In this document: positions 30,474-50,931 of the stretch, in pieces | Layout: each line of letters begins with the position of its first letter | Numbering within the stretch: position 1 is the first letter of the stretch | Origin: a virus | DNA length: 56,164 nucleotides | Strand: one strand, 5' to 3' | Virus record (IMG/VR): IMGVR_UViG_3300030105_002581 | Location: 1-56,164 of that record | Notes under the pieces: generated by a model | The model's input: only the letters and a program-made list of their open reading frames with translations | What the model was told of the DNA's origin: nothing | Database searches by the model: none | Translations under genes and position numbers: made by a program

Positions 30474-31201
30474 TATTTCTTATCTCCTTTGCCATCAAAG
30501 TTTTCTCTCCAGTTTGCATCGTACCCAATAATGGTCTCTTCGATAGAAGAACGCTTCCGTTGCATTGCTGCGAGGGATTTGAGCATGACACGACCTTGAA
30601 GGTTACTAACTTCTCTAACAGATTTCACTTCATCACATACTTTTTTGACATACACAGTCAAGTTAATATCAACTCTTTTACACATCTGGTTGATCGCCAA
30701 GATCTGCTGATCCGTAATATCTTCTTCAGCAGCAAGAACGTCATCCTCAGGAGTGTCCTGCATCTCTTCAGCCGTTACAGCTCGTAGCTTCAGGGCTCGG
30801 CGTAGAGCTTTACCTTCTGCTCTAGTGTCTGCAGTAGCTATAAGGTGCTGGTTAAATGGATGTGGAACATTGTTGAATTTGACATCAACACAACCCGATA
30901 TTGTTATAATAGTATTGGTCTCGTACTTTTGTATTTGCAAAGTGTGCTTAATTGTACAAATTCCTTGATTGGTATCGTACTGAAAGATATCACTAACTGA
31001 AGATACGATCTCTCCATAGACTCTTTCGGTTACTCTACGAAGACCGTCTACTGTAGGGTTACCATCTCGGAGCTCACTATCAACCATCTGGTCTAAGACA
31101 TACTCGCTCCACTCTGGGCTATCTGTCGTAATAGCAGCTTCCACTTCCTCAGTAATTTCTTCTTCAACCTCAACGATTTCGTCAATTGCTAAGTCACTCA
31201 T
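30473..31201 (-). CDS. Rad52-like single-strand annealing protein
   Basis: This 242-residue product has an acidic N-terminus, then a strand-rich core (GICTIKHTLQIQKYETNTIITISGCVDV) and the motif ATADTRAEGKALRRALKLR, typical of phage Rad52/Sak-type annealing proteins. The C-terminal part contains a second helical domain ending KRSSIEETIIGYDANWREN. Such proteins coat single-stranded DNA and anneal complementary strands during recombination-dependent replication. It is translationally coupled to its upstream neighbour by ATGA overlap. ERF- or RecT-type annealing proteins are the alternatives; the DTRA motif favours Rad52-like. Confidence 0.7.
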   Translation of the reverse strand: MSDLAIDEIVEVEEEITEEVEAAITTDSPEWSEYVLDQMVDSELRDGNPTVDGLRRVTERVYGEIVSSVSDIFQYDTNQGICTIKHTLQIQKYETNTIITISGCVDVKFNNVPHPFNQHLIATADTRAEGKALRRALKLRAVTAEEMQDTPEDDVLAAEEDITDQQILAINQMCKRVDINLTVYVKKVCDEVKSVREVSNLQGRVMLKSLAAMQRKRSSIEETIIGYDANWRENFDGKGDKK

Positions 31202-32004
31202 ATTACTATATACCTCTTATCCTCTGTAGGGAACGATTGTTTAATTTCATCTAACCTTTCAAGAAGGTTTGCTAAGACTTCTCTCATGTAAAGCTGCGAG
31301 ATCCTTTTCCGCTGCTTAATTCTTATCATCACGAGTCCTTCTCTTAAGACAAGTCCATCCTTTTGGCGGTCGGCATTTTGTTTCTTCTCAAGAGCTTCCT
31401 CACCCCACACTGGGTAATGATGAGAGGGGCCATCTATCTCTATGACAGTAAGAAGATCTTCTATGAATAGATCTGTCTCAAGTTTCAAGTTCTGCAACCA
31501 TGACCTCTTATGTAATTGTACCCTATAGTTCAGCTTAACAAGCTCATTAAATATGAAAAGTTCCATGCGAGAACCGTTCCTAGACGTTTCCCTTATTGCG
31601 TCTCCTCCCATTCTACGGAATATATCTTGCTCTTCAGGGGTCTTTTTATCCCAAGAGGCCTTGCCTATCTTAGATCTTTCATCTCTAGATTCTTCATCAA
31701 GAGATTCCCAGACCTTTCCTTGGCTCTCGCTAATCTTAAGCTTAGTCCCTTCGTTGTGCCCTATGCCTTCTGTAGGATGGGCTGACCTTCCAGACTCAAG
31801 AGCTAGTTTAGCAGCGGCACTCTTACCTCTAGGATCAATACCAAGTCTTATAGTGTCTCTTCTAATCTTATTAGCGTAAGTCCCCACCATAGTAGCGATA
31901 ACACCAAAGCTAAACCCCTTATTAATATAAGCGGCCTCTAGGAAGTTAGTTTTTTCTAGTTCTGTCAGGTCAAAGTATTTGCTTGCGTTCTTTTCAATGT
32001 TCAT
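31198..32004 (-). CDS. Homing-type endonuclease (HTH, NUMOD3-like motif, Vsr-like nuclease)
   Basis: Residues about 20-65 look like a helix-turn-helix (IATMVGTYANKIRRDTIRLG). GHNEGTKLKISESQGKVW (about 82-99) resembles the NUMOD3 motif of mobile endonucleases. Residues 146-240 form a restriction-endonuclease-like domain: E148, D178 in TDLFI, and E189-I-D191-G-P-S-H-H. The EIDGPSH ending is like Vsr and EDxHD homing nucleases. It would cut DNA at a defined site, perhaps to spread itself or to help exclude relatives. It sits inside the operon with overlapping neighbours, so it may be domesticated for recombination with the adjoining Rad52-like protein. Confidence 0.7.
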   Translation of the reverse strand: MNIEKNASKYFDLTELEKTNFLEAAYINKGFSFGVIATMVGTYANKIRRDTIRLGIDPRGKSAAAKLALESGRSAHPTEGIGHNEGTKLKISESQGKVWESLDEESRDERSKIGKASWDKKTPEEQDIFRRMGGDAIRETSRNGSRMELFIFNELVKLNYRVQLHKRSWLQNLKLETDLFIEDLLTVIEIDGPSHHYPVWGEEALEKKQNADRQKDGLVLREGLVMIRIKQRKRISQLYMREVLANLLERLDEIKQSFPTEDKRYIVI

Positions 32005-39706: not shown

Positions 39707-41344
39707 CTAACTTGTTAATTGTTCCACTTTTTTTATCAAAAAACTTCCTCTATTTTTATCCTTAGACCCTCGCATGAGAACAGTGTTGCCCTCATGAAGG
39801 AGCTTTTTGTACTTATCCCATTCTTCAGAGAAGGCTGTTATGTTATCTAGGGAGCAGCTCGCATCACTAACTGTGACGAAACCCATCTTTTGCCCCTTAG
39901 ATTTACCTTTCTTAATAGTCCACTCTCGAACGGAATCTACTTGTACAGCTAAGGCTATCCCATGCTCGGCATTAAAACCGTCAAGGAACTCCTTGCAAGA
40001 ACAATTTGATTTGCTGGTATCATAATCCTCAACCTTGTTACAGGTCAGGGCTATCCCCAAAAGCTCTTCCTCTTTCTTAGCAATCCAAGAAGGAGAATCA
40101 TAAAGATCATATCCCGGATTGTCATAGGAAGCTATTAGGTCTTCTATCATAGGGATTCTATCCTTTCTGAATATAGGACGGTTCTTATCTTTCACCCTAG
40201 AAGCCTCAACCATTGCGGTAATAGTATCCTTAGTACTAACCTCTGGGTGCTCTAGCTTGTAGTTGTTTAACCATGACTGCTCTCTACCAGTGAACTCTTT
40301 CATGATGTTAAAATAATGGAGCATCTTAGAACGCCCAATATTAAAACAATCAAATGCCCCTGCTAAAATCAGTGAGGAGAACGCCTTCTTATTTACATAT
40401 GGTGCAATCCGTATCAGGAAACAGTCCCATCCACATTCAGAGATATCTATTTCATTAGACTCGATATGCTTCATGAGTTTCTTAAAGACTGAAGCCCCAA
40501 CATTCTTAATGTTCGTGATTCCATAGGTAGGGTTCTCACCAATCAGTTGGAAGTGTTCATTCATGTGCTGGATACTAGGAGACATAACATGGATGTCCAT
40601 TGTCTTAGCATTGTTTACTAGCTCATGAACTTCCCAGAAGGTATCTGGCTTTCCGATGGAGTGCTTGAGGTACGCTGTGAAAAACTCTCTAGGGAAGTGA
40701 GCCTTTGCATATGCTGTTAGGTAGGAGTTGTAGGCGTAACTTATGGAGTGAGATTTATTGAAGGAGTATCTCTGAGACTTTTCAATCCAACTAAAGATTT
40801 CTTCAGCTTGTACTTTATTAACAATGCCCTTCTCTACAGCCTTCTCAAGGAAGGAAGTTTTAACCTTAGCCATTACATCCGCTTGCTTCTTACCAATAGC
40901 CTTTCTTAACGTGTCTGCCTCTTGGAGATCGAAACCCCCAATGTCAGTAGCAATCTTCATAGCCTGCTCTTGATAAACAAGGATGCCCTGAGTGCTCTGG
41001 AGGATTGGTTCAAGGGCATCATGGAGGTACACAACAGAATCTATTCCGTGCTTTCTATCTACATAGTGCATAGTCAGGCTCTTGCCATTCACCATCGAGT
41101 CCAGACAACCGGGACGCATAATTGCGATAAGGTCAGACAGCTCACTTATGTTTCTTGGCTTTGCCTGCTTCGATAAGGATCGTCCAAGCTGTGATTCCAG
41201 CTGGAAGATACCCTTCGTGTTTCCTTCACAGACCAAGTCCCATGTATGGGGGCACTCCAAGTCTAGCTTGGTAATGTCAGGATTAAAGATTACTTTTCCT
41301 GCATCGTCTGTTTCAAATTTACATCCGCAACTGAAGGTCTTCAT
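39707..41344 (-). CDS. dnaE: DNA polymerase III alpha subunit, C-terminal half
   Basis: This 545-residue protein holds the part of a bacterial type C polymerase after the palm: GIFQLES (45-51), DLIAIMRPGCLDSM, DRKHG, the fingers with GILVYQEQAMKIATDIGGF and RKAIGKK, the SFNKSHSISYAYNSYLTAYAK motif, a helix-hairpin-helix region (YGITNIKNVGASVFKKL), and an OB fold near the C-terminus (GIALAVQVDSVREW ... GFVTVSDASCSLD). No PHP or catalytic Asp triad is present; those are in the gene 0.7 kb upstream. No intein is visible. It overlaps the exonuclease gene by four bases (ATGA). Confidence 0.92.
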   Translation of the reverse strand: MKTFSCGCKFETDDAGKVIFNPDITKLDLECPHTWDLVCEGNTKGIFQLESQLGRSLSKQAKPRNISELSDLIAIMRPGCLDSMVNGKSLTMHYVDRKHGIDSVVYLHDALEPILQSTQGILVYQEQAMKIATDIGGFDLQEADTLRKAIGKKQADVMAKVKTSFLEKAVEKGIVNKVQAEEIFSWIEKSQRYSFNKSHSISYAYNSYLTAYAKAHFPREFFTAYLKHSIGKPDTFWEVHELVNNAKTMDIHVMSPSIQHMNEHFQLIGENPTYGITNIKNVGASVFKKLMKHIESNEIDISECGWDCFLIRIAPYVNKKAFSSLILAGAFDCFNIGRSKMLHYFNIMKEFTGREQSWLNNYKLEHPEVSTKDTITAMVEASRVKDKNRPIFRKDRIPMIEDLIASYDNPGYDLYDSPSWIAKKEEELLGIALTCNKVEDYDTSKSNCSCKEFLDGFNAEHGIALAVQVDSVREWTIKKGKSKGQKMGFVTVSDASCSLDNITAFSEEWDKYKKLLHEGNTVLMRGSKDKNRGSFLIKKVEQLTS

Positions 41345-42015
41345 TTAGAGAACGCCCCTTTGAACTTATCAACCGACGCTTGCTTACGATGGAACTTCAT
41401 GAACTTAACCATGAGCTTCGCTTCGTCAATAGTATCAGACAGTGCCTCGTGAGCCTGACCGTCAGATTCTAAGCCGAGGAAGTCTCGGAAGGTATCCAGT
41501 TTCATATTAGCTGGTTCTTCTAGGTTCTCAAACCACATGAATAGAATGTCCATCATGTCGATCTTAGTTACTTTTGACAAGGGAAACTTAGTCTTGTGCT
41601 TTTCTGCTAGGCGATAGAGAATAGGTAAGTCAAACCCAACGATGTTATATCCAGCGGGGATTGGCTCTGTGTACCATTGTCCGGGTTTCTTATCTACTTC
41701 ATACTTAGAGCAGTACGACATGAAGTTCTTCCAGACAACCTTCTCGCTTTGTCCTGTCTTCCAGTCTGCTACAATCGCCTCTGTTTCAACTCCTCTTGTT
41801 TTGGCGTGCCAAGCAATTGTTGATTGACGTTCCTTCGTGAAGTATTCCTCGGAGTCAAGACCGTCTGGCTTGATAGTAGCTCTAAACGCCTGCTCTGTTT
41901 TGATCTCAAGAGTTCTTGGGTCTACAGGAACGGCAGCAATCTCTACTGGATTACAGGTGTCAGGGTTTGGGCTATCTGTTTCTAAGTCGAAGACTATAAT
42001 CCATCTATTATTCAT
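41341..42015 (-). CDS. DnaQ-like 3'-5' proofreading exonuclease
   Basis: The 224-residue product is a DEDDh exonuclease: VFDLETD (D10, E12), YNIVGFDLPIL (D129) and AHEALSDTIDEAKL (H189, D194). All metal-binding residues are in place. It resembles the epsilon subunit of DNA polymerase III and removes mismatched 3' ends. Its location exactly between the two polymerase halves suggests the three are made together and form one complex. TAGGAT precedes the ATG. Confidence 0.9.
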   Translation of the reverse strand: MNNRWIIVFDLETDSPNPDTCNPVEIAAVPVDPRTLEIKTEQAFRATIKPDGLDSEEYFTKERQSTIAWHAKTRGVETEAIVADWKTGQSEKVVWKNFMSYCSKYEVDKKPGQWYTEPIPAGYNIVGFDLPILYRLAEKHKTKFPLSKVTKIDMMDILFMWFENLEEPANMKLDTFRDFLGLESDGQAHEALSDTIDEAKLMVKFMKFHRKQASVDKFKGAFSK

Positions 42016-42055
42016 TGTTTTATCCTAATGTAATATGTATTTACTCTGTGCTTAA

Positions 42056-43921
42056 TTATACCCCCGCAAGTATGTTCGGGATCTCCATAATCTTGTCAAG
42101 CATCTTAATTCCTAGTACATCCAGCTTAAGAAGTCCTACGTCCTCACAACTGGGCCCTTCAAATCCGGCAAGTTGGCCCTTTCCTTCTTTGTCTATTACC
42201 ATAGGGCAAATATCATAGATAGGCTGAGGTGAAATCACAACTCCGGCAGCATGCTTTGACTGAATGATCTTAGTGTCCTCTAGTCTTATTGCTTGCTCGA
42301 ATATTCTAGAGAACTTTCCTGTTAGCTTACCGTTGCTATCTATTTGACACCATTCCTTTAGCTTATCAGATCTGTTCTCAAGAGCCCAAGTAATAACAGA
42401 GGCTGTTCCTAACTCATCCTTCATGTCCTGTAGCTCATCTGCAATCTTAGCTTCATCAAGAATATGAGAAGTGATGTCGTTCTGTTCTGCAAAGCCTATG
42501 TTACCACGAGAAGCCATTACCCTTTTAAGTGCAGCCCTACCCTTAAGTGTTTGGAAGGTAAGAATCTGGGCTACATTATCTTTACCATATTTCTTTTGGA
42601 TATGGCCCATAATATCGCTTCGTGCATCTTTGGGCACATCAATATCAATATCAGGCATGGAGACATGGCCACCTGTGTTACGACCAGCGTTATAAAATCT
42701 CTCGAAAATTAGCTTGTAGGGAATAGGATCTATCTGTGTAATGTCAAGTAGATAAGAGACCATGCACCCTGCAGCACTACCTCTTCCCGGCCCTGTCAGA
42801 TAGCCTTGGCTTCTAGTATAGTTTAGGATATCCCTCACGATAAGGAAGTAACTGGACAGGTTCGTCTCAGTAAAGATCTTAATCTCTTTATTAACCCTAT
42901 CTCCATACTCGCTGAATAAGGATCCCTTCGTAATGTGATCCATTTTATCAGCCCAGCCCTGTCTGCAAAGCTCTCTTAGATAGTCGTTCGGAGACATCTT
43001 GTCTGGACAATCAAATACTGGAGGATTAGGAGGGCCGAGGATTTCATAGTTGGTACACATGTCTGCTATCTCAATAGTGTGAGCTAACTCAGAGGGAGTG
43101 TGATGCTCTGCCATCTCCTCGTAACTTGGGATGTGGTAGTTGTCTGACTCGAAGAAGGGCTTAAGGTGCTGTGCTCTTCCTTCATTTATCTCTGTCTGGA
43201 TTTGCCCTATGCTTTTCCTCATGGAGGTACACAGAAGAACTCTCTGGTCGTCGGCATCTTCACGGCGACAATAGTGGGCATCTGGAGTAGCGACGCAAGG
43301 GATGCCTGTCATCTTAGCTACTTCTCTTAGCTTCTCGGCAGCCTCTTTTGCATCTGTATTGATAACAGAGTCTATGAGTTGAATCTCTATATAGAAATTA
43401 CCCCGACCAAAGGCCTCTTCCATTATAGAAGCTTGGCGTACTGCGTTATTTCTCCAGTTGGGATTCCCTATAACAATAGACCCTAGTATAGACCCAAGAT
43501 GTCCACTGAAGGACACTAGGTCTCCATCGAACTCGGAGACAGACTCTAGAAACTGAGCCATCCCTAGTCGAGGCTTGTGGTAGAAGTGTTCTGGTCTGTT
43601 AGATGTAGAGACCAATTCCAGAAGGTTCTTCCATCCCTTTAGGTTCTTTGCCAGTACAACCTGATGTCTCAGCTTAGAGTTTGTGGGCTCTTTAACTATA
43701 GCACTCTCTTTGGATAGGTAAAGTTCGCAACCTAGGATAGGCTTGAACCCAGAGGAATTCATGGTCTTATAAAAGTCCACTCCCCCACTAACTGTTCCAT
43801 GATCTGAGATAGCACATGTAGAAATCTCTAGTTCTTCTAATCGTCCGGCGATATGCTTTGTTTGGGAAAGTCCATCTAAGAGCGAGTACTCGCTATGGAC
43901 ATGCAATGGTACGTATGTCAT
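42056..43921 (-). CDS. dnaE: DNA polymerase III alpha subunit, N-terminal half
   Basis: This 621-residue protein carries the PHP domain (HVHSEYSLLDG at 7-17, SDHG at 39-42, TPDAHY at 213-218) and the palm: GPGRGSAAG (377-385), PDIDID at 423-428 and KLDVLG with the third Asp (D601). It stops 20 residues after that Asp, and the fingers follow in a separate gene. The PHP ligands appear intact, so it might have nuclease activity of its own beside the separate DnaQ-type enzyme. Together the two halves total 1166 residues, close to E. coli DnaE (1160). It overlaps the upstream nuclease gene by ATGA. Confidence 0.93.
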   Translation of the reverse strand: MTYVPLHVHSEYSLLDGLSQTKHIAGRLEELEISTCAISDHGTVSGGVDFYKTMNSSGFKPILGCELYLSKESAIVKEPTNSKLRHQVVLAKNLKGWKNLLELVSTSNRPEHFYHKPRLGMAQFLESVSEFDGDLVSFSGHLGSILGSIVIGNPNWRNNAVRQASIMEEAFGRGNFYIEIQLIDSVINTDAKEAAEKLREVAKMTGIPCVATPDAHYCRREDADDQRVLLCTSMRKSIGQIQTEINEGRAQHLKPFFESDNYHIPSYEEMAEHHTPSELAHTIEIADMCTNYEILGPPNPPVFDCPDKMSPNDYLRELCRQGWADKMDHITKGSLFSEYGDRVNKEIKIFTETNLSSYFLIVRDILNYTRSQGYLTGPGRGSAAGCMVSYLLDITQIDPIPYKLIFERFYNAGRNTGGHVSMPDIDIDVPKDARSDIMGHIQKKYGKDNVAQILTFQTLKGRAALKRVMASRGNIGFAEQNDITSHILDEAKIADELQDMKDELGTASVITWALENRSDKLKEWCQIDSNGKLTGKFSRIFEQAIRLEDTKIIQSKHAAGVVISPQPIYDICPMVIDKEGKGQLAGFEGPSCEDVGLLKLDVLGIKMLDKIMEIPNILAGV

Positions 43922-44463
43922 GCTAATAGTTCCGTTATGTGTTGGTATAATTCTTTCACTTCTAAATTATACATGTCAACATGAGTTTTGAAGCCATTTC
44001 TTTTGTCAATTTTTCCTTTTTCCCAAAGGGTTGCTCTTTCCCAGTACTCTTCGGCTGGCATAAACCCACATAGCCATATTTTCTTTAGACCATAATACTT
44101 CTTCGGGTGTTCCTTTGTAGTCCTCTGGAACTCAATACTAATGAAGGCGTAGATGTCTGGCTGCTGATGGCTACTAGTCTTGGCTACGGAGACATCATAG
44201 TAAGGTCTGGGAGCAACAGTCCTCCTCTTTGTCTTAACCTCTACACGCTGACCTGTAGGCATAAGAAGGTCGTGGTTGTATTTATCAAGACCTCTGTTAT
44301 TGCTGACTATCTCAGCCCCTGTGTGAGAGGCGAGGGCTTCTTCTCCTAAGTAACCAGCAAGATTACCGGCGCCCTTTAGGATAGAATTATTCAGTGAGCC
44401 TAGAGATATAGCCTTCTCCTTCGCTCTTTCCAGCATATAAGAATCAAACATTAGATTTATCAT
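43918..44463 (-). CDS. PD-(D/E)XK nuclease-like protein
   Basis: This 181-residue product has GYLGEEALAS (E41/E42), HDLLMPTGQRVEVKTKR with D65 and E75-x-K77, the classic (D)...E-x-K signature of restriction-endonuclease-fold enzymes. The C-terminal half is basic and aromatic (YYGLKKIWLCGFMPAEEYW). It could trim recombination intermediates or degrade host DNA. Overlaps with the polymerase and Cas4-like genes imply a replication or repair role. Confidence 0.75.
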   Translation of the reverse strand: MINLMFDSYMLERAKEKAISLGSLNNSILKGAGNLAGYLGEEALASHTGAEIVSNNRGLDKYNHDLLMPTGQRVEVKTKRRTVAPRPYYDVSVAKTSSHQQPDIYAFISIEFQRTTKEHPKKYYGLKKIWLCGFMPAEEYWERATLWEKGKIDKRNGFKTHVDMYNLEVKELYQHITELLA

Positions 44464-45497
44464 ACTTCACCGGGAGGCTGATACTTTCCAATGGTGTGCG
44501 TAGGATCTTTCAGATTGTCCGTGACCCACTCAATTCCATTCTTATGTATTTGATCCATGACTTGATCACACTTTGTGAGACACCCACCGTAGGAGTTAGT
44601 TAATGGTTCGATGCTAGTTCCTTCAAAGGTCGTCTTACCAGCAGCACATAGCTTAGAACATTTCCAACTCTTGTTCTGCTGTGGATGTGTGGTGTCCTTG
44701 ATTAAGTCAAACTTAGCTTTAATCATTTTAAGAGTGTCTGGAATATCACTCTCTTCAAAGTGAAGGGTAAAGGCTCCTCCGTCATTCATAAAGTGAATGG
44801 TTACCAAGAAGGTTTTGATATCAGGATAAAGTTTAGTCACAGCAAGATGATACATTCTTAGCTGTATATCTTTCTGTAGAAGCTCTGGGGTTTTTACCTT
44901 ACCAGTAGCCCAGTCTAATCTCTTGCCTGTCTTCCAGTCAATGATCTCATACACACCGTCACCAGCGTCGGAGATCAAGTCAATGGTTCCCTTGAGGGCT
45001 AGGTTCCCCTGAAGGACTGTCCCATCCTCTAGAGTGTAATCATACTTAGCCCAATCCTCCTCGATCTCAAAATCGAAGTGAGGCTCTGCATCTACAACCG
45101 TAAGGTTCTTGGGATCAAACATGCCGTCATCATCATTAAAGATCTTCCAGACCCACGCTCTGCAATGCTTCAAGTCACTAGGAATCCAGTGGTGGTGAGG
45201 TAATCTAGAAGTATAGTACTCAAAGACTGTATCGATTATCCCATCTAGATATTCAGGTTCATAGTTAGCTGTCTCTATTTCCCCTATTTCTCTATCATTA
45301 ATAGTTGCGTGCCCTTCTTGTAGAGCCTTCTTAGCGACCGCTGCTAACTCAAGTATCTTATGTACAATCGTCCCCTTGTCTGCTTTCTTACCAGACAGAC
45401 CTCTCCAGCCCAAGTTATACTCAATATAGTATTGCATGGGGCACATCTTGTGCGAATTGAAGGAGCTACTACGAAAATAAACAATAGGGATAGTCAT
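44460..45497 (-). CDS. Cas4/RecB-like nuclease with Fe-S cysteines
   Basis: In 345 residues the PD-(D/E)XK order is complete: KGTIVHKILE (H46), LKGTIDLI (D173), YEIIDWKTGK (D187-x-K189) and the DIQLRMYHLAV Q-motif (Q212). C19 near the N-terminus plus C280, C284, C306 and C310 near the C-terminus provide more than the four ligands of the iron-sulfur cluster found in Cas4, AddB and Dna2. Such enzymes resect DNA ends 5'-3'. It probably works with the RecA-like and Rad52-like proteins in recombination-dependent replication. It is not linked to any CRISPR array. Confidence 0.85.
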   Translation of the reverse strand: MTIPIVYFRSSSFNSHKMCPMQYYIEYNLGWRGLSGKKADKGTIVHKILELAAVAKKALQEGHATINDREIGEIETANYEPEYLDGIIDTVFEYYTSRLPHHHWIPSDLKHCRAWVWKIFNDDDGMFDPKNLTVVDAEPHFDFEIEEDWAKYDYTLEDGTVLQGNLALKGTIDLISDAGDGVYEIIDWKTGKRLDWATGKVKTPELLQKDIQLRMYHLAVTKLYPDIKTFLVTIHFMNDGGAFTLHFEESDIPDTLKMIKAKFDLIKDTTHPQQNKSWKCSKLCAAGKTTFEGTSIEPLTNSYGGCLTKCDQVMDQIHKNGIEWVTDNLKDPTHTIGKYQPPGEV

Positions 45498-45501
45498 AAT
45501 T

Positions 45502-46326
45502 TTACTCTTCTATTTGAGGTATAACGCCGTCAAGATGTTTGACAGCCGCGTAGATAGCTTGGTTCTGTTGGGATAAGTCCATGCCTTCGTTTTCGATTAC
45601 GGCACTGCACATTTGAATAGCGGCTGTTACTTCAGACTCGCTCGAATGTTCATCCGAACTACCATAAGGACTTCTGGTTAGGCCTATCACAAAACCCTCT
45701 TGGTCTTTGATAGATTGGACTTCGTTCTCAAAGCGAACATCAGAAACTAATGCTAGTTCTGGATTATCTTTTTTAATTCTTCGGAACAAGGAATCAAGCC
45801 AAACGTCCGAGTTCATTTTACGGAACATATCAGTCCCTACATACTGCAACACTTCACGAGCAGTCATGACCCCTTTCTTGTGAACCATCATACCAAGAGA
45901 GGCAACCTGCTCTTGAGTGAACCCTTTCTTCTTTAGACCAGAAGGACTAATAACTCCGGGCATGTTTTCCCACTTGAGCTTTGTCTTACTGTTCTTATCC
46001 TTGTCGCTCCCGAACGCCTGTTCCTTGGATAGCCCCAGAATATCAACTGCCATTTGCTTCAAGGAGTCTGCAATAGCGTAGACTCTTACAAATTTCCCTA
46101 GCTCATTATCGTATAGTTCGTCAACAGAAACTTCAGGGTTCTTAAACAAAAGCCACTCCTTTGACCCTTTCTCCCCTAATACATCACTAACTTCAATTTC
46201 CCCATCCTCATTAATCCTTGCAACATTACAAACTGTTAGCTCTGCAAGCTTCATAGCGATGATAAAATTACAAGAAGTATTCTTACCGCTCTGTTTCTTA
46301 CCGACAAATCCAAGTATCTGGGTCAT
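45502..46326 (-). CDS. Deoxynucleoside monophosphate kinase
   Basis: The 274-residue product opens MTQILGFVGKKQSGKNTSCN, a Walker A variant (GKKQSGKNT) of T4 gp1-type kinases. Further motifs are YAIADSLKQMAVDILGLSKEQ, the REVLQYVGTDMFRKM segment, and LVSDVRFENEVQSIK (the conserved D-V-R-F-x-N-E). It phosphorylates dNMPs to dNDPs, feeding the polymerase. I use the ATG just before TQILGF; starts nine and twelve bases further upstream are possible but lie too close to the GAAGG site. Confidence 0.85.
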   Translation of the reverse strand: MTQILGFVGKKQSGKNTSCNFIIAMKLAELTVCNVARINEDGEIEVSDVLGEKGSKEWLLFKNPEVSVDELYDNELGKFVRVYAIADSLKQMAVDILGLSKEQAFGSDKDKNSKTKLKWENMPGVISPSGLKKKGFTQEQVASLGMMVHKKGVMTAREVLQYVGTDMFRKMNSDVWLDSLFRRIKKDNPELALVSDVRFENEVQSIKDQEGFVIGLTRSPYGSSDEHSSESEVTAAIQMCSAVIENEGMDLSQQNQAIYAAVKHLDGVIPQIEE

Positions 46327-46327
46327 A

Positions 46328-46552
46328 TTAAGCATCACCTTCTGGGAAATACTTCCCTAGAGTTTCTAATCTGTCTTCTGCATCTGCCAGCATGTCCAGA
46401 GCTTCGTCTAGGTTCTTATGAAAGTCCCCAGTAGAGTGATCCCCAATACCTGCCCCGTTCTCTAGTAATAAAGAGAGAGACATTCTTGCCTTTGACTTGT
46501 CTGCTCTTGCTGTCTGCCATAAATACGAAACAGCGTGTTGTGAATAACTCAT
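46328..46552 (-). CDS. Small conserved-looking protein (74 aa)
   Basis: This helical, soluble protein has the middle segment LLENGAGIGDHSTGDFHKNLDEAL. I remember the same phrase from other phage replication operons, though without a function. It lies between primase and dNMP kinase with one-base and zero-base junctions, so it is certainly co-expressed. No motif suggests an activity. Confidence 0.65.
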   Translation of the reverse strand: MSYSQHAVSYLWQTARADKSKARMSLSLLLENGAGIGDHSTGDFHKNLDEALDMLADAEDRLETLGKYFPEGDA

Positions 46553-47713
46553 TTAGAAATCCTTATAAACTTTCTTGGCCTTAGTAATGAACGGCTTTAT
46601 ATCAGCAGTTACAGCGTCTACATTTAAGTCTGCTATATCTGCTGCTTTAAAACTCGGGAAATAAATACGATACAATCGAGAACACTGTTCTTCTATTTTC
46701 TTAGCAGCCACTTTGCCCGCTTCGTCATTATCCATAAGACAGATAAGGGACAGTGCCCCTGACTCGTCTAGGATATGTTTTTGTTCTGTATTAAATGCTG
46801 TTCCAAATATAGCAACTGCATTGTGGATCCCTGCTTCCGCAAGTCTCCATACGTTTCCGGGAGACTCAACAAGGATAGCGACTCCCGTATCTAAAATAGA
46901 ATCCTTAGCCCTCCAGTAATTATACAACCACTTTTCCTTTTGGAAGCCTTTACTATGGAGCCATTTTGGAGAATGCCTACAAACAGATCGAGCACTGTGG
47001 TAGCTCTTACATTCCTTACACTGGTCATGAATACTTCTACCAGTACACCCAACTATATATTCATGGTTATTGTCATAGATGGGAACGACTGCCCGTTCGA
47101 ACATCGGCTTGTAGTGATTATCACAGTAACCAACATCGTATTCCTCTAAGACCTCTTTCGAGAACCCTCTATTTAGATAGTACGCGGCAGGAACCTCCAC
47201 CTTTTCTCTGTACTGATCCTGAGTTATCCCAAGACCTCTTGTCTTTCTCTTGGAGAAGCTGTTAACCATCGAACCGAACTTCATCTTCTCGACATTGATA
47301 GACTCTGCTTCTAGTGATTCAAAGTCCTTGTCAAGAAAGTCCAGAACAAACTCAACGGCCTCGGAGAAGCCAGCTATCTTATCTCCCTCTTGTTCCCATT
47401 TGTATCTGTATCTAGATAGGCAACCTCTGATGAATCCAAAGAAACTGTTCCCAAAGATATCTTCGCACTGGTGCGTCCTGCACTTATAATGAATCTTATA
47501 GTCACCATTATAGTACATATTTAAAGCGGTGTTATTGTCTCCATTATGAATAGGACAGGTGGACTTAATCAGTACGTCATTCCTATAGGCCTTGGTGATA
47601 CCAAAGAACTCATAGATCTGATCGATATGTTCAGCTCCCATTCTAGAGAGTTGGTTCAACTTGCCGTAGTCCTTGTATTTATACGAAGGAGACTTGCTCT
47701 TCTCTGTTTCCAT
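46553..47713 (-). CDS. DnaG-like DNA primase
   Basis: The start chosen has GAGGA eight bases upstream; a start 27 bases earlier would overlap the helicase further. Residues 53-83 form a zinc site (C53, H56, C78, C83), as in DnaG zinc-binding domains. The TOPRIM domain shows ILVESPGNVWR (E283) and CLMDNDEAGK (D328, D330). A second Cys/His cluster, C232-x2-C235 ... H239 ... C245, lies before the TOPRIM core and is not usual. It makes RNA primers for the polymerase, alongside the helicase gene immediately upstream, which it overlaps by 35 bases. Confidence 0.88.
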   Translation of the reverse strand: METEKSKSPSYKYKDYGKLNQLSRMGAEHIDQIYEFFGITKAYRNDVLIKSTCPIHNGDNNTALNMYYNGDYKIHYKCRTHQCEDIFGNSFFGFIRGCLSRYRYKWEQEGDKIAGFSEAVEFVLDFLDKDFESLEAESINVEKMKFGSMVNSFSKRKTRGLGITQDQYREKVEVPAAYYLNRGFSKEVLEEYDVGYCDNHYKPMFERAVVPIYDNNHEYIVGCTGRSIHDQCKECKSYHSARSVCRHSPKWLHSKGFQKEKWLYNYWRAKDSILDTGVAILVESPGNVWRLAEAGIHNAVAIFGTAFNTEQKHILDESGALSLICLMDNDEAGKVAAKKIEEQCSRLYRIYFPSFKAADIADLNVDAVTADIKPFITKAKKVYKDF

Positions 47714-49121
47714 AATCCTCGTCCTCCTCTCCAGTGTCATCCTCTATCTCAAAGGCGGTCAGTCCTTCTCTGATTCTTCCTGACGCTCCTCTCATCTGAA
47801 CATTGATGTAGTCATTAGAATCTAGTCCCTCTCCGTGACGTGAGATAAGAGGAACAAGCTTGAGGTTCCCGTGTTCTGGCCCGTCAGAAGCGATCTCTTC
47901 ATCTGATTTCTTCTTATAGATAGTGAAGTTAGAGCAGAGCCAAATGATTCTGTCAGAACCAGACGCTGCATCCGTAGACTCTTTTGTAATTCCATCTCGA
48001 TTAAGCTGGATGAAGGTTAGGATAGGTACTTCATACTTGAGAGAGAAGTTATGCAGTGCTGTCATCATAAATCCAAGCACTTGGAACTCTTTCATGTCTC
48101 CCTTTATTGCCGCCGAGTCCATGAGTTTTAAATAGTCATAGATGATAACGCAGTCCTTAGCCTTACCTTTATCATTAAGCCCTACAACTTTAGCAATCCA
48201 ACGTCTCATGATAGAGAGTTGATCTTCGAAGGCAAGACCACCGATTGTTTTGAAGTAGTAAGGTGTATCCTTCAAGTCCCTAGCCGCCTGAAAAACCTTC
48301 TTGCGATTAGTGGGATTCTTTGAAAAGGCACCTGTCTCAATATCGTTAATGGGAACATCAGTAAGCATTGCCATGAGACGATGCTGGTGATCTTCTTTCC
48401 TCATCTCTGTATCTAGGTTAAGAACAGGGATTCCTTGCTGTGCTATATGGATACCCATGTTGTCAGCCAGTAAGGTCTTACCTGTCTTAGGCCTAGCTCC
48501 AATAACATTAACCGTCCCCCTCCGCAGTCCTCCTCCGATAGCGAAGTCGTACCTAGAGAATCCTGTAGGAATACCAATCTGGTCTACTGGGTTCTCTGAG
48601 AGTTCGATCAGGCGATCTTCTGCTGTGTCTAGAACCATTGTAGGTGAGTCGTCAACGTCTGAGAGCATGGAGGTGAAGTCGAAGATAGACTCTTCAGCTA
48701 TACCTAGGATCTGAGAGATAGGCTCATCTCCCTTGACCTGAGCATACTTCTCCTTAGTTAGTTCTAGCTGGTCATGCATTAGTCTTGCAATCTCAAGCTT
48801 GCGAATCTTAGCCCCGAACTTCCTTACGTTACTAAGAAGTACTGGGAACTTAATAATAGAGGAGAGGTGTGAAACTTCTTGAGCATTAAAAAAGTCAGAG
48901 TTTCCTAACTCTTTCGCCGCTGACATCATGGAAGGAATGTCTATACTTGTAGTCTCATCCTTCTCTAGGATATGCTTCAAGCACCCATAGAGAACCATGT
49001 TTGATTCATCTGTGAAGCTACTCTCTTGGATAATGTCAGTGACATCGTATAATGCGTCCGAACCGTATTTAAAGATCCCCGCAAGGATAGCTCTTTCTGC
49101 TGGTAAGTCTTGTAAAATCAT
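47679..49121 (-). CDS. DnaB-like replicative helicase
   Basis: The 480-residue product has an N-terminal helical domain (AERAILAGIFKYG, as in DnaB-N), a linker, then the RecA-fold ATPase with Walker A GARPKTGKT (208-216), Walker B CVIIYDYLKLMD, and TFIQLNRDG (sensor). It would unwind the fork as a hexamer. AGG precedes the chosen ATG; the open frame reaches 27 bases further back into the upstream gene. It is coupled to the primase, as in other phage primosomes. Confidence 0.9.
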   Translation of the reverse strand: MILQDLPAERAILAGIFKYGSDALYDVTDIIQESSFTDESNMVLYGCLKHILEKDETTSIDIPSMMSAAKELGNSDFFNAQEVSHLSSIIKFPVLLSNVRKFGAKIRKLEIARLMHDQLELTKEKYAQVKGDEPISQILGIAEESIFDFTSMLSDVDDSPTMVLDTAEDRLIELSENPVDQIGIPTGFSRYDFAIGGGLRRGTVNVIGARPKTGKTLLADNMGIHIAQQGIPVLNLDTEMRKEDHQHRLMAMLTDVPINDIETGAFSKNPTNRKKVFQAARDLKDTPYYFKTIGGLAFEDQLSIMRRWIAKVVGLNDKGKAKDCVIIYDYLKLMDSAAIKGDMKEFQVLGFMMTALHNFSLKYEVPILTFIQLNRDGITKESTDAASGSDRIIWLCSNFTIYKKKSDEEIASDGPEHGNLKLVPLISRHGEGLDSNDYINVQMRGASGRIREGLTAFEIEDDTGEEDEDYGNREEQVSFV

Positions 49122-49126
49122 TTTTT

Positions 49127-49663
49127 TTAACCTGCTGATGTTGAACAACCGTTACATTTCCATCGAGACGAATCATGCACCACCGAAGGTGCAACATCAT
49201 ATACGTCTCCACACACTCTGCATTCTACTTCAATTACGCTTGACTGTCTAGGGTTGGTAGTCCTTGCCGGAATAGCATCTTTCTTATCAGAGCTTGCCGC
49301 ACTCTCAAGTTCTTCTCTTTCCTTAGGAGAAAGGTTGGTCGATCTCATGAAGTCTAGGAACTTGTTCTCTCTAGGAGAGTCTATATCTATGGGAGCAGTT
49401 CGACAGTTAGATCCCTTTGAGTTCCCCTTCTTTCTTCCCGTAGCAGACCTTTTACCTTTTCCACTTCTTTTACGACCGCCCTTTCCTCTTCGTCGCTTCT
49501 TATCAATCTCATGAGTCCTCTCCTCAGCCTCGTTCTCTTCAACTTGCTCAGGTTCTGGCTCCGACACTTTCTCTTCGCCGTCAGTGTCGTCTATTAGAAA
49601 TTCAATAAGCTCTGCTTTTGAAAAGTCTTTTAACAGTGCTTTTAGTTTATCCTGCTTACTCAT
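49127..49663 (-). CDS. Basic linker protein with C-terminal zinc ribbon
   Basis: The 178 residues divide into an acidic helical N-terminus (about 1-50), a very basic middle (KKRRRGKGGRKRSGKGKRS, about 55-75), a second helical stretch (SPRENKFLDFMRSTNLSPKEREEL), and a zinc ribbon ending CRVCGDVYDVAPSVV...WKCNGC. The basic part probably binds nucleic acid. Position directly upstream of the helicase suggests a helicase loader or replisome adaptor, but the fold does not match a known loader. This is inference. Confidence 0.65.
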   Translation of the reverse strand: MSKQDKLKALLKDFSKAELIEFLIDDTDGEEKVSEPEPEQVEENEAEERTHEIDKKRRRGKGGRKRSGKGKRSATGRKKGNSKGSNCRTAPIDIDSPRENKFLDFMRSTNLSPKEREELESAASSDKKDAIPARTTNPRQSSVIEVECRVCGDVYDVAPSVVHDSSRWKCNGCSTSAG

Positions 49664-50147
49664 ATCTTCTTCCTGCTTTCGCTTTCTGGAGGTTTACGAA
49701 AAGGTCGCTTAGATTTTTTGCTGATGTTGAAAGGTAAGTGATTCTGTCGGCTCTCTGTTGAGCGTATCTTTTAATGCTGTTTACTTTGGAACAGTACCCG
49801 TCCCCTTTGACAGCTTGCTCGAACTGACTATCCCATGAGCCTCCGTACTGAGACTCCCTTCCTGAGATAGTGCTCTTAAGAACAGAAGTCGCCCAGTTCA
49901 CTCGGGAATTTTCTCTATTGTAAGATCTCTGTAGGTAGAAAGAAAAACCACCGAGGAGTAGTGCTGCTTCCGCACATTCTTCGATAGTAAGTTTCTCCAT
50001 TGCTCCACGAGACATCTCCATGTAGCCTTTTACCGTTTGATCTCCGAAGTCTCCTGAGTAGGCTGGCAGACCTAGGCTGTTCTCGTACTCGTCAAGAATC
50101 CTATCGATCTCGTCTAGTCGTTCCTTTGCTTGATCTTTAATTGCCAT
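49656..50147 (-). CDS. Unknown replication-module protein
   Basis: The 163-residue, helical product has RSYNRENSRVNWATSVLK and ISGRESQYGGSWDSQFEQAV segments, and no enzymatic signature. It overlaps the nuclease gene by 34 bases and the zinc-ribbon gene by eight. I have a vague memory of such proteins between nuclease and helicase genes in other phages, but not of a function. A structural partner role in the recombination complex is possible. Confidence 0.6.
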   Translation of the reverse strand: MAIKDQAKERLDEIDRILDEYENSLGLPAYSGDFGDQTVKGYMEMSRGAMEKLTIEECAEAALLLGGFSFYLQRSYNRENSRVNWATSVLKSTISGRESQYGGSWDSQFEQAVKGDGYCSKVNSIKRYAQQRADRITYLSTSAKNLSDLFVNLQKAKAGRRYE

Positions 50148-50530
50148 TCTTCGTCGCTCTCGTTATAAGGTAATTCAACATACGTTATATTATTATACTC
50201 GCACCATTCACTTTTTCGTGAATCCCTTTTCCTTTGTTTTGCGAAATCTTGTGCCGACGTGTGGAATAGCGAGTTAAATTTATAATGTTGCTGGCCATGA
50301 ACCTCTATTACTAGCTTAATAGTATTGATGTAGAAATCAAAGAAAAGTTTCTCTCGTCTAGTAATTGGGACAGCTACCTCTTCCAGTATCTGGACGGTTG
50401 GGAAAAGATCTACTAGGATATTACGGGCTCGGAGATGTAGCTTAGAACGAGGACGCATGTCACTAGCGTTTATGACATACCCGTTAAGGTTCCACTTCTG
50501 TATCTCATTGTCTAGGTCTCTTATCTTCAT
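50114..50530 (-). CDS. Vsr-like/restriction-fold endonuclease
   Basis: The start at ATGA overlap with the upstream stop gives 138 residues; a longer reading adds ten doubtful residues. The core is FFDFYINTIKLVIEVHGQQHY with D65, E76 and H78, followed by KRDSRKSEWCEYNNITYVELPY. The E-V-H-G-Q-Q-H-Y string is typical of Vsr-like and phage DUF559-type nucleases. It could nick mismatches or flap DNA during recombination. It is adjacent to the RecA-like gene cluster. Confidence 0.75.
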   Translation of the reverse strand: MKIRDLDNEIQKWNLNGYVINASDMRPRSKLHLRARNILVDLFPTVQILEEVAVPITRREKLFFDFYINTIKLVIEVHGQQHYKFNSLFHTSAQDFAKQRKRDSRKSEWCEYNNITYVELPYNESDEEWQLKIKQRND

Positions 50531-50931
50531 CCAAGAACCTTCGCAACTAGAGCTCCCCATTTGAATAGTGTCTGCTTAGAACTTCTTTCGATCATTAGTG
50601 TTTCGTCAGGCATAACGATAGAGATCCTATTTTGTTTAAACTTATCCAAGAGACAGACAGCTAAGTCTTTCATAAACTCATCTATCTTACTAGATTCAGT
50701 TTCAACGCGAGGGTAATTGATGGCAGCGACCTCCCATCCATCCTCCGTGTAATGAGTTTTAGAGACGAAGGTAGTGTCCGTTACCCTAACAGGAATAGTC
50801 TGAGAATATTTCTCCTGAAATAGACCTATCTCCTTTATCAGATCCTTCTTAGAGAACGACTTAAGAGTCTCCTCATTGATAGAACCTAAGTATACCCTAA
50901 CTTCGTAAGTACTTCTAGACCTTATTTCCAT
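50527..50931 (-). CDS. Unknown protein next to the RecA-like gene
   Basis: The 134-residue product has mixed alpha/beta composition (STYEVRVYLGSINEETLKSF, TTFVSKTHYTEDGWEVAAINYPRVE) and no known motif. It overlaps the RecA-like gene by 17 bases and the Vsr-like gene by four, so it is made with recombination proteins. A mediator or single-strand-DNA-associated role is possible only by context. Confidence 0.6.
   Translation of the reverse strand: MEIRSRSTYEVRVYLGSINEETLKSFSKKDLIKEIGLFQEKYSQTIPVRVTDTTFVSKTHYTEDGWEVAAINYPRVETESSKIDEFMKDLAVCLLDKFKQNRISIVMPDETLMIERSSKQTLFKWGALVAKVLG

Follow-up and report, generated by a model that had tools for sequence, protein, structure and literature searches.

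DNA polymerases of the DnaE kind that serve in replication are usually regarded as single chains. In the split DnaE of cyanobacteria, the break lies inside the fingers domain at an intein site and is repaired by protein splicing. In phages, the gp43A and gp43B proteins of Aeromonas phage 25 purify together and have polymerase activity, the split NrdA of phage Aeh1 is fully active, and both of these splits have been tied to homing endonuclease insertion (PMC2988022). Group 2.2 jumbo phages possess a split minimal Pol III alpha, the two proteins of which are thought to reassemble (Iyer et al., 2021, PMC7824862), and the Jug phages have split DNA polymerase genes with endonuclease inserts (PMC12363816). 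It has also been asked whether proofreading by PHP and by epsilon is mutually exclusive (PMC3919608). Our search of the open-licence literature turned up no account of a full-length DnaE with a conserved break between palm and fingers that has a proofreader inside it.

The DNA analysed here, referred to as the window, comprises 56,164 nt of viral origin (IMG/VR virus record IMGVR_UViG_3300030105_002581, positions 1-56,164). It encodes a DnaE-type DNA polymerase III alpha in two genes, with a complete DEDDh exonuclease gene between them. The coordinates of these three frames in a preliminary description of the sequence proved exact. The features of the locus are as follows:

42056-43921, minus strand: first half of alpha, with PHP and palm/thumb, 621 aa, containing all three catalytic Asp residues (Pfam PHP, DNA_pol3_alpha)
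42644-42652, minus strand: catalytic Asp pair D424 and D426 (PDIDID; E. coli D401 and D403)
42119-42121, minus strand: third catalytic Asp, D601 (E. coli D555), 20 residues ahead of the break
42016-42055, minus strand: 40-base gap from the first half to the exonuclease
41341-42015, minus strand: DEDDh 3'-5' exonuclease, a putative epsilon-like proofreader, 224 aa (Pfam RNase_T; PHROG 'DNA polymerase exonuclease subunit')
41341-41344, minus strand: ATGA overlap of the exonuclease stop and the second-half start
39707-41344, minus strand: second half of alpha, with fingers, HhH and OB fold, 545 aa (Pfam DNA_pol3_finger, HHH_6)
41192-41212, minus strand: GIFQLES motif, start of the fingers
44460-45497, minus strand: PD-(D/E)XK (Cas4/RecB-like) exonuclease of the same operon (Pfam, PHROG)
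45502-46338, minus strand: deoxynucleoside monophosphate kinase (PHROG)
46553-47740, minus strand: DNA primase (PHROG)
47679-49148, minus strand: DnaB-like replicative helicase (PHROG)

A 181-aa gene at 43918-44463 overlaps the first half and has a PD-(D/E)XK-like pattern (D..EVKTK by eye) and no family match. Elsewhere in the window, two homing/HNH endonuclease-like genes are located at 50114-50560 and 31198-32004.

Pfam searches assigned PHP and DNA_pol3_alpha to the first half and DNA_pol3_finger and HHH_6 to the second, the OB match being sub-threshold. The first gene had been described as ending 20 residues past the third catalytic Asp and the second as beginning ahead of the fingers; both statements hold, with D601 standing in a protein of 621 residues and the second half starting 44 residues before GIFQLES. 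Aligned with Taq alpha, the first-half profile stops at residue 637 and the second-half profile begins at 642, and the cut therefore falls in the palm/fingers linker with little or nothing lost there. The combined length of 1166 residues (621 + 545) is exact and DnaE-like in total, but the likeness to an intact DnaE does not extend to the last 100 or so residues of Taq alpha: the second half terminates after the OB fold, with its profile ending at Taq residue 1120 of 1220, and the tau-binding C-terminal domain that occupies this region of DnaE is missing. Among the split loci, the first-half tail after the third Asp has a median of 22 residues. This tail and the head of the second half up to FQLE together have a median of 74 residues versus 49 in the intact linker, and as a rule they are not shorter. 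Single-chain AlphaFold models gave a pLDDT of 91 for the first half, for which the PDB matches to DnaE extend only up to the palm, and of 89 for the second half, which likewise matched DnaE; the two models match DnaE over complementary regions, and their best solved-structure matches are DnaE proteins. An internal beta-clamp-binding motif was not in excess, as a QxxhF-like sequence occurred in 17 of 145 second halves versus 17.2 expected by shuffling. C-family polymerases are taken to be single polypeptides, and two genes were found in 162 loci; judged by its sequence, the window polymerase is a DnaE by homology and a variant by architecture.

Related viral contigs were found by scans with each protein and with alignments of each, and the loci were re-read for open frames and scored by three profiles. 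This yielded 162 distinct split loci, all with the first half followed by the second on the same strand, and when the complete split loci were clustered by their second halves at 62% identity, 38 clusters resulted. The exonuclease lies between the halves in 160 of the 162; since the loci were selected by similarity to the window polymerase, this and the other frequencies are not unbiased, although many loci were retrieved via one half alone and the exonuclease was still present. Bacterial homologues evaluated with the same profiles were intact in 80 of 80 loci. D424 and D426 are kept in 160/160 and 159/160 split loci, respectively, and D601 in 159/160, with one gap. In the 145-160 full-length copies, the Asp triad and the GRGS, RPG, YQEQ, LRKA-GKK and FN-H motifs are invariant or nearly so; within GIFQLES, the Q is invariant and the F and E are present in 144/145. 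Median dN/dS values were 0.031 for the first half, 0.029 for the exonuclease and 0.033 for the second half, and the pairwise distances among the three genes were correlated at r = 0.91-0.93, the best of 500 permutations reaching 0.13. One locus (L106:7314-7983) has an apparently frame-broken exonuclease flanked by intact halves.

These data bear on a first alternative, that a sequencing or assembly error, or decay, has caused a single broken gene to be read as two. Splits resembling a frameshift in one genome do exist, as in phages P1201 and PA5. Both phages were considered as instances of the same split and rejected: the break in Corynebacterium phage P1201 is isolated and its relatives are intact, and in Pseudomonas phage PA5 the two genes sum to the one-gene length of a relative. 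In the present group, however, the same break recurs in 162 distinct loci with an inserted exonuclease, dN/dS near 0.03 and invariant catalytic residues. The relatives thus refute error or decay, the probability of which we consider negligible.

Searches of cultured phages returned no close relative of the window (none above 60% identity; the best first-half match, at 36%, was to a protein of the intact type). The window exonuclease was unmatched among them, and a relative's exonuclease matched only Bacteroides phages, at about 26%. No cultured member of the split group was found among 50,697 records, and the arrangement has therefore probably been overlooked. In the cultured Bacillus phages vB_BpsS-140 and Jayan (L072:4839-8446, L073:4986-8393), alpha is broken elsewhere in the first half.

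A second alternative is that an intron or split intein joins the halves at the RNA or protein level, with the exonuclease residing in the removed piece. Some observations point that way: phage G carries an intein in its alpha gene, which is broken at other places too, the second half of L065 contains an intein, and homing-type nucleases are present in some intervals. Rfam introns were absent from the window and six relatives, and the Pfam intein model, which detects the L065 intein and so served as a positive control, had no match in either half of the window polymerase. The earlier observation that no intein ends are visible at the break is borne out for the window, and in L065, the one relative noted to bear an intein, the element lies within the second half. 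The halves also end and start with their own codons near a domain boundary, and a tail with a median of 22 residues is far too short for the N part of a split intein. An ATGA overlap of this kind is usual for coupled genes. Joining by splicing is accordingly regarded as highly improbable.

The gene in the break was described at the outset as a complete DEDDh exonuclease, and this is confirmed by the presence of D10, E12, D129, H189 and D194 and by the RNase_T match. Across the relatives, D129, H189 and D194 are found in 157/157 copies and D10 and E12 in 155/157 (two gaps). Its closest known relatives in the PDB are PolC-type exonucleases and, more weakly, epsilon. The second half begins no more than 20 nt from the exonuclease stop, or overlaps it, in 147 of the 160 loci, a spacing to be expected where distinct products are translated in a coupled manner. 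The C-terminus of the exonuclease (41341-41400 in the window) carries a motif, [FL]xx[ASVC]F, present in 147 of 157 copies versus 17 expected by shuffling, which is possibly a docking peptide; the canonical clamp motif was not found in the exonuclease tails. Two loci (L061:6451-7855 and L071:6503-7861) have a tandem pair of DEDDh genes between the halves.

The interval between the halves has a median of 866 bases and a maximum of 6.8 kb, and the gap preceding the exonuclease is taken up in relatives by small genes, homing endonuclease genes or genes of metabolism. Homing-endonuclease-type genes were observed inside the break of L045, L048, L049 and L116. Metabolic or repair cargo (L120:1183-7335, L123, L051:5517-7309, L239:4885-8004 and L102:6464-7027) included genes for aldehyde dehydrogenase, class III aminotransferase, saccharopine dehydrogenase, glutamate dehydrogenase, IMPDH and UDG. 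Two families of small proteins, of about 60 and 75 aa, occur between the first half and the exonuclease in 84 and 22 loci, respectively (L107:7064-7294 and like places; L038:7104-7325 and like places). The homing-endonuclease-type genes make a homing-endonuclease origin of the split plausible, if unproven; that such an enzyme started the original break is the more speculative proposal, and the homing genes now in the break may be later arrivals.

Given such cargo, the exonuclease could be a mere neighbour, namely a nucleotide-scavenging or repair nuclease that does not proofread for the split polymerase. The unrelated genes that the interval also takes (UDG, glutamate dehydrogenase, IMPDH, aldehyde dehydrogenase), the lack of an exonuclease in the L065 break and the lack of a canonical clamp motif in the exonuclease tail are all in keeping with this. 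Against it stand the position of the gene between the halves in nearly every locus, its tight junction or overlap with the second half, distances that co-vary with those of the halves, its retention where PHP is degenerate, and the PolC-type and epsilon relationships noted above. We therefore consider it unlikely that the exonuclease is an incidental neighbour.

The PHP ligands had been called intact, a statement that stands in part: eight of the nine positions follow the Taq pattern, but 151 of 160 loci have His where the pattern has Cys, and the ligands have been lost in several lineages, with L045, L047, L049, L050 and L054 lacking about 100 PHP residues. Lineages with a degenerate PHP still retain the DEDDh gene, which indicates that the PHP nuclease is dispensable. 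The suggestion of two nuclease activities is consequently plausible for about 150 of the 160 loci and does not extend to the lineages that lost their PHP ligands and kept DEDDh. Most members may have two active nucleases, of which the DEDDh enzyme is the constant one.

A tree was built from the joined halves together with intact phage and bacterial proteins. In it, the split forms make up one group (SH-aLRT 100), with the exception of L069. The latter was rejected as a member: its break lies within the palm and contains an HNH gene, and the tree places it beside an intact relative, away from the main group, which marks it as a separate event. L065 is the earliest branch of the split group; its polymerase is split and its break holds no exonuclease. 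A split can thus exist without an exonuclease in it, which hints that the break arose before the exonuclease arrived. In L065 (7821-10376) and L066, an intein that includes an HNH-like stretch interrupts the second half ahead of CFNKAH, in the part of DnaE where cyanobacteria have their intein site. Comparison of relatives for fused forms, as proposed with the original observation, identified one lineage, L057:6456-12213 (also L056, L058-L060 and L064), in which palm and fingers are in one 854-aa frame with a short link, the exonuclease is downstream of the fusion and the OB part is a separate 175-aa gene. Its nesting within the split group (SH-aLRT 98, and a common shortened PHP domain) suggests that L057 is possibly a re-fusion with a new break, without forcing that view, as the AU test left its exclusion unrejected (p 0.13). 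At L063:7962-9523, the second half is cut again into fingers and HhH/OB genes, giving a three-piece polymerase.

In the 27 records tested (up to 244 kb, and possibly incomplete genomes), there was one fingers domain per record, and no family A (PolA) or family B (PolB) polymerase and no sliding clamp (beta clamp) homologue scored past the cut-off; most records had one exonuclease of the window-exonuclease family. The halves might have taken on separate jobs, one as a PHP nuclease and the other as a DNA-binding fingers/OB protein, with a host enzyme replicating the phage. Separate synthesis of the proteins and the lack of a clamp homologue in the 27 records would fit this; however, the catalytic residues of the palm are invariant despite loss of PHP ligands in several lineages, those of the fingers are invariant as well, and the distances of the two halves are tightly correlated. 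We judge such a division of labour to be very unlikely.

An active two-piece replicase linked to an epsilon-like exonuclease is instead the best reading, being favoured by the invariant catalytic residues, the strong selection and the fact that the records searched yielded no other recognisable DNA polymerase. We are largely confident that an old split gave rise to a two-piece replicative polymerase that reassembles without splicing and draws its proofreader from the same operon, whereby physical assembly, polymerase activity and the proofreading role are what we infer. According to this model, a full-length DnaE-type alpha gene would have suffered a single break, at the palm-fingers linker, in the phage from which a large group descends. 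Reading of the operon would begin with the helicase, primase, dNMP kinase and PD-(D/E)XK nuclease genes, in this order, and go on to the first half, the exonuclease and, last, the second half. Each half would fold independently, and their non-covalent association would rebuild one palm/fingers active site, to which the first half would contribute the Asp triad, PHP and thumb and the second half the fingers and the DNA-binding HhH/OB region. The DEDDh exonuclease, translated between the halves, would supply proofreading, as epsilon does for bacterial alpha. An extension of this model, that the enzyme is an obligate three-part assembly in which the exonuclease helps to assemble or bridge the halves at the palm/fingers break, is a conceivable but rather doubtful proposition; were it true, only proofreader-bearing polymerase would become active.

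A diverse phage group, with contigs of up to 244 kb, thus keeps its DnaE as two chains with a clean cut at a domain boundary, through divergence to about 35% identity. A natural two-component Pol III alpha would offer a way to study palm-fingers communication, the coexistence of PHP and epsilon-type proofreading (the question put in PMC3919608) and the effects of gene order on replicase assembly. The break is also a site at which homing endonucleases and metabolic genes settle within an essential operon.

In comparison with known systems, the split polymerase resembles bacterial DnaE1 (Taq, 2HPI; M. tuberculosis, 5LEW/7PU7) in its domain order of PHP, palm/thumb, fingers, HhH and OB, and bacterial DnaE1 with epsilon in its catalytic residues and in having the DEDDh enzyme as a separate protein. 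It differs in that the bacterial enzyme is one polypeptide (80/80 loci) with a tau-binding C-terminal domain, and the bacterial epsilon gene is not nested within the alpha gene. In PolC, alpha and a DEDDh exonuclease are likewise tied together, but there the exonuclease is a domain within the PHP domain of a single chain (PMC3919608). In Bacillus phage G (gp329/gp331/gp339), Pol III alpha is likewise fragmented and adjoins a homing endonuclease gene; the pieces are at least three in number, are separated at other positions and include an intein-like insert in the palm part, and no DEDDh gene was found between them. The split DnaE of cyanobacteria is similarly encoded by two genes, whereas the window break is further upstream and has no intein, and the L065 intein is uninterrupted inside the second half, unlike the cyanobacterial split intein. 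In the group 2.2 jumbo phages, the split core is without other Pol III domains, is encoded by distant genes and exists beside a family B polymerase (PMC7824862); the split group has a full-length polymerase with PHP present, adjacent genes and no PolB, and this is the sole polymerase in the records searched. The gp43A/gp43B proteins of phages 25 and 44RR and NrdA of Aeh1 share with the present system an essential phage enzyme made as two polypeptides, although gp43A/gp43B is a family B polymerase with a built-in exonuclease, is confined to a few T4 relatives and has no proofreader gene in the break (PMC2988022). Since functional two-piece phage polymerases are known from these T4-like phages, the split replicase described here would be a further variant on that theme.
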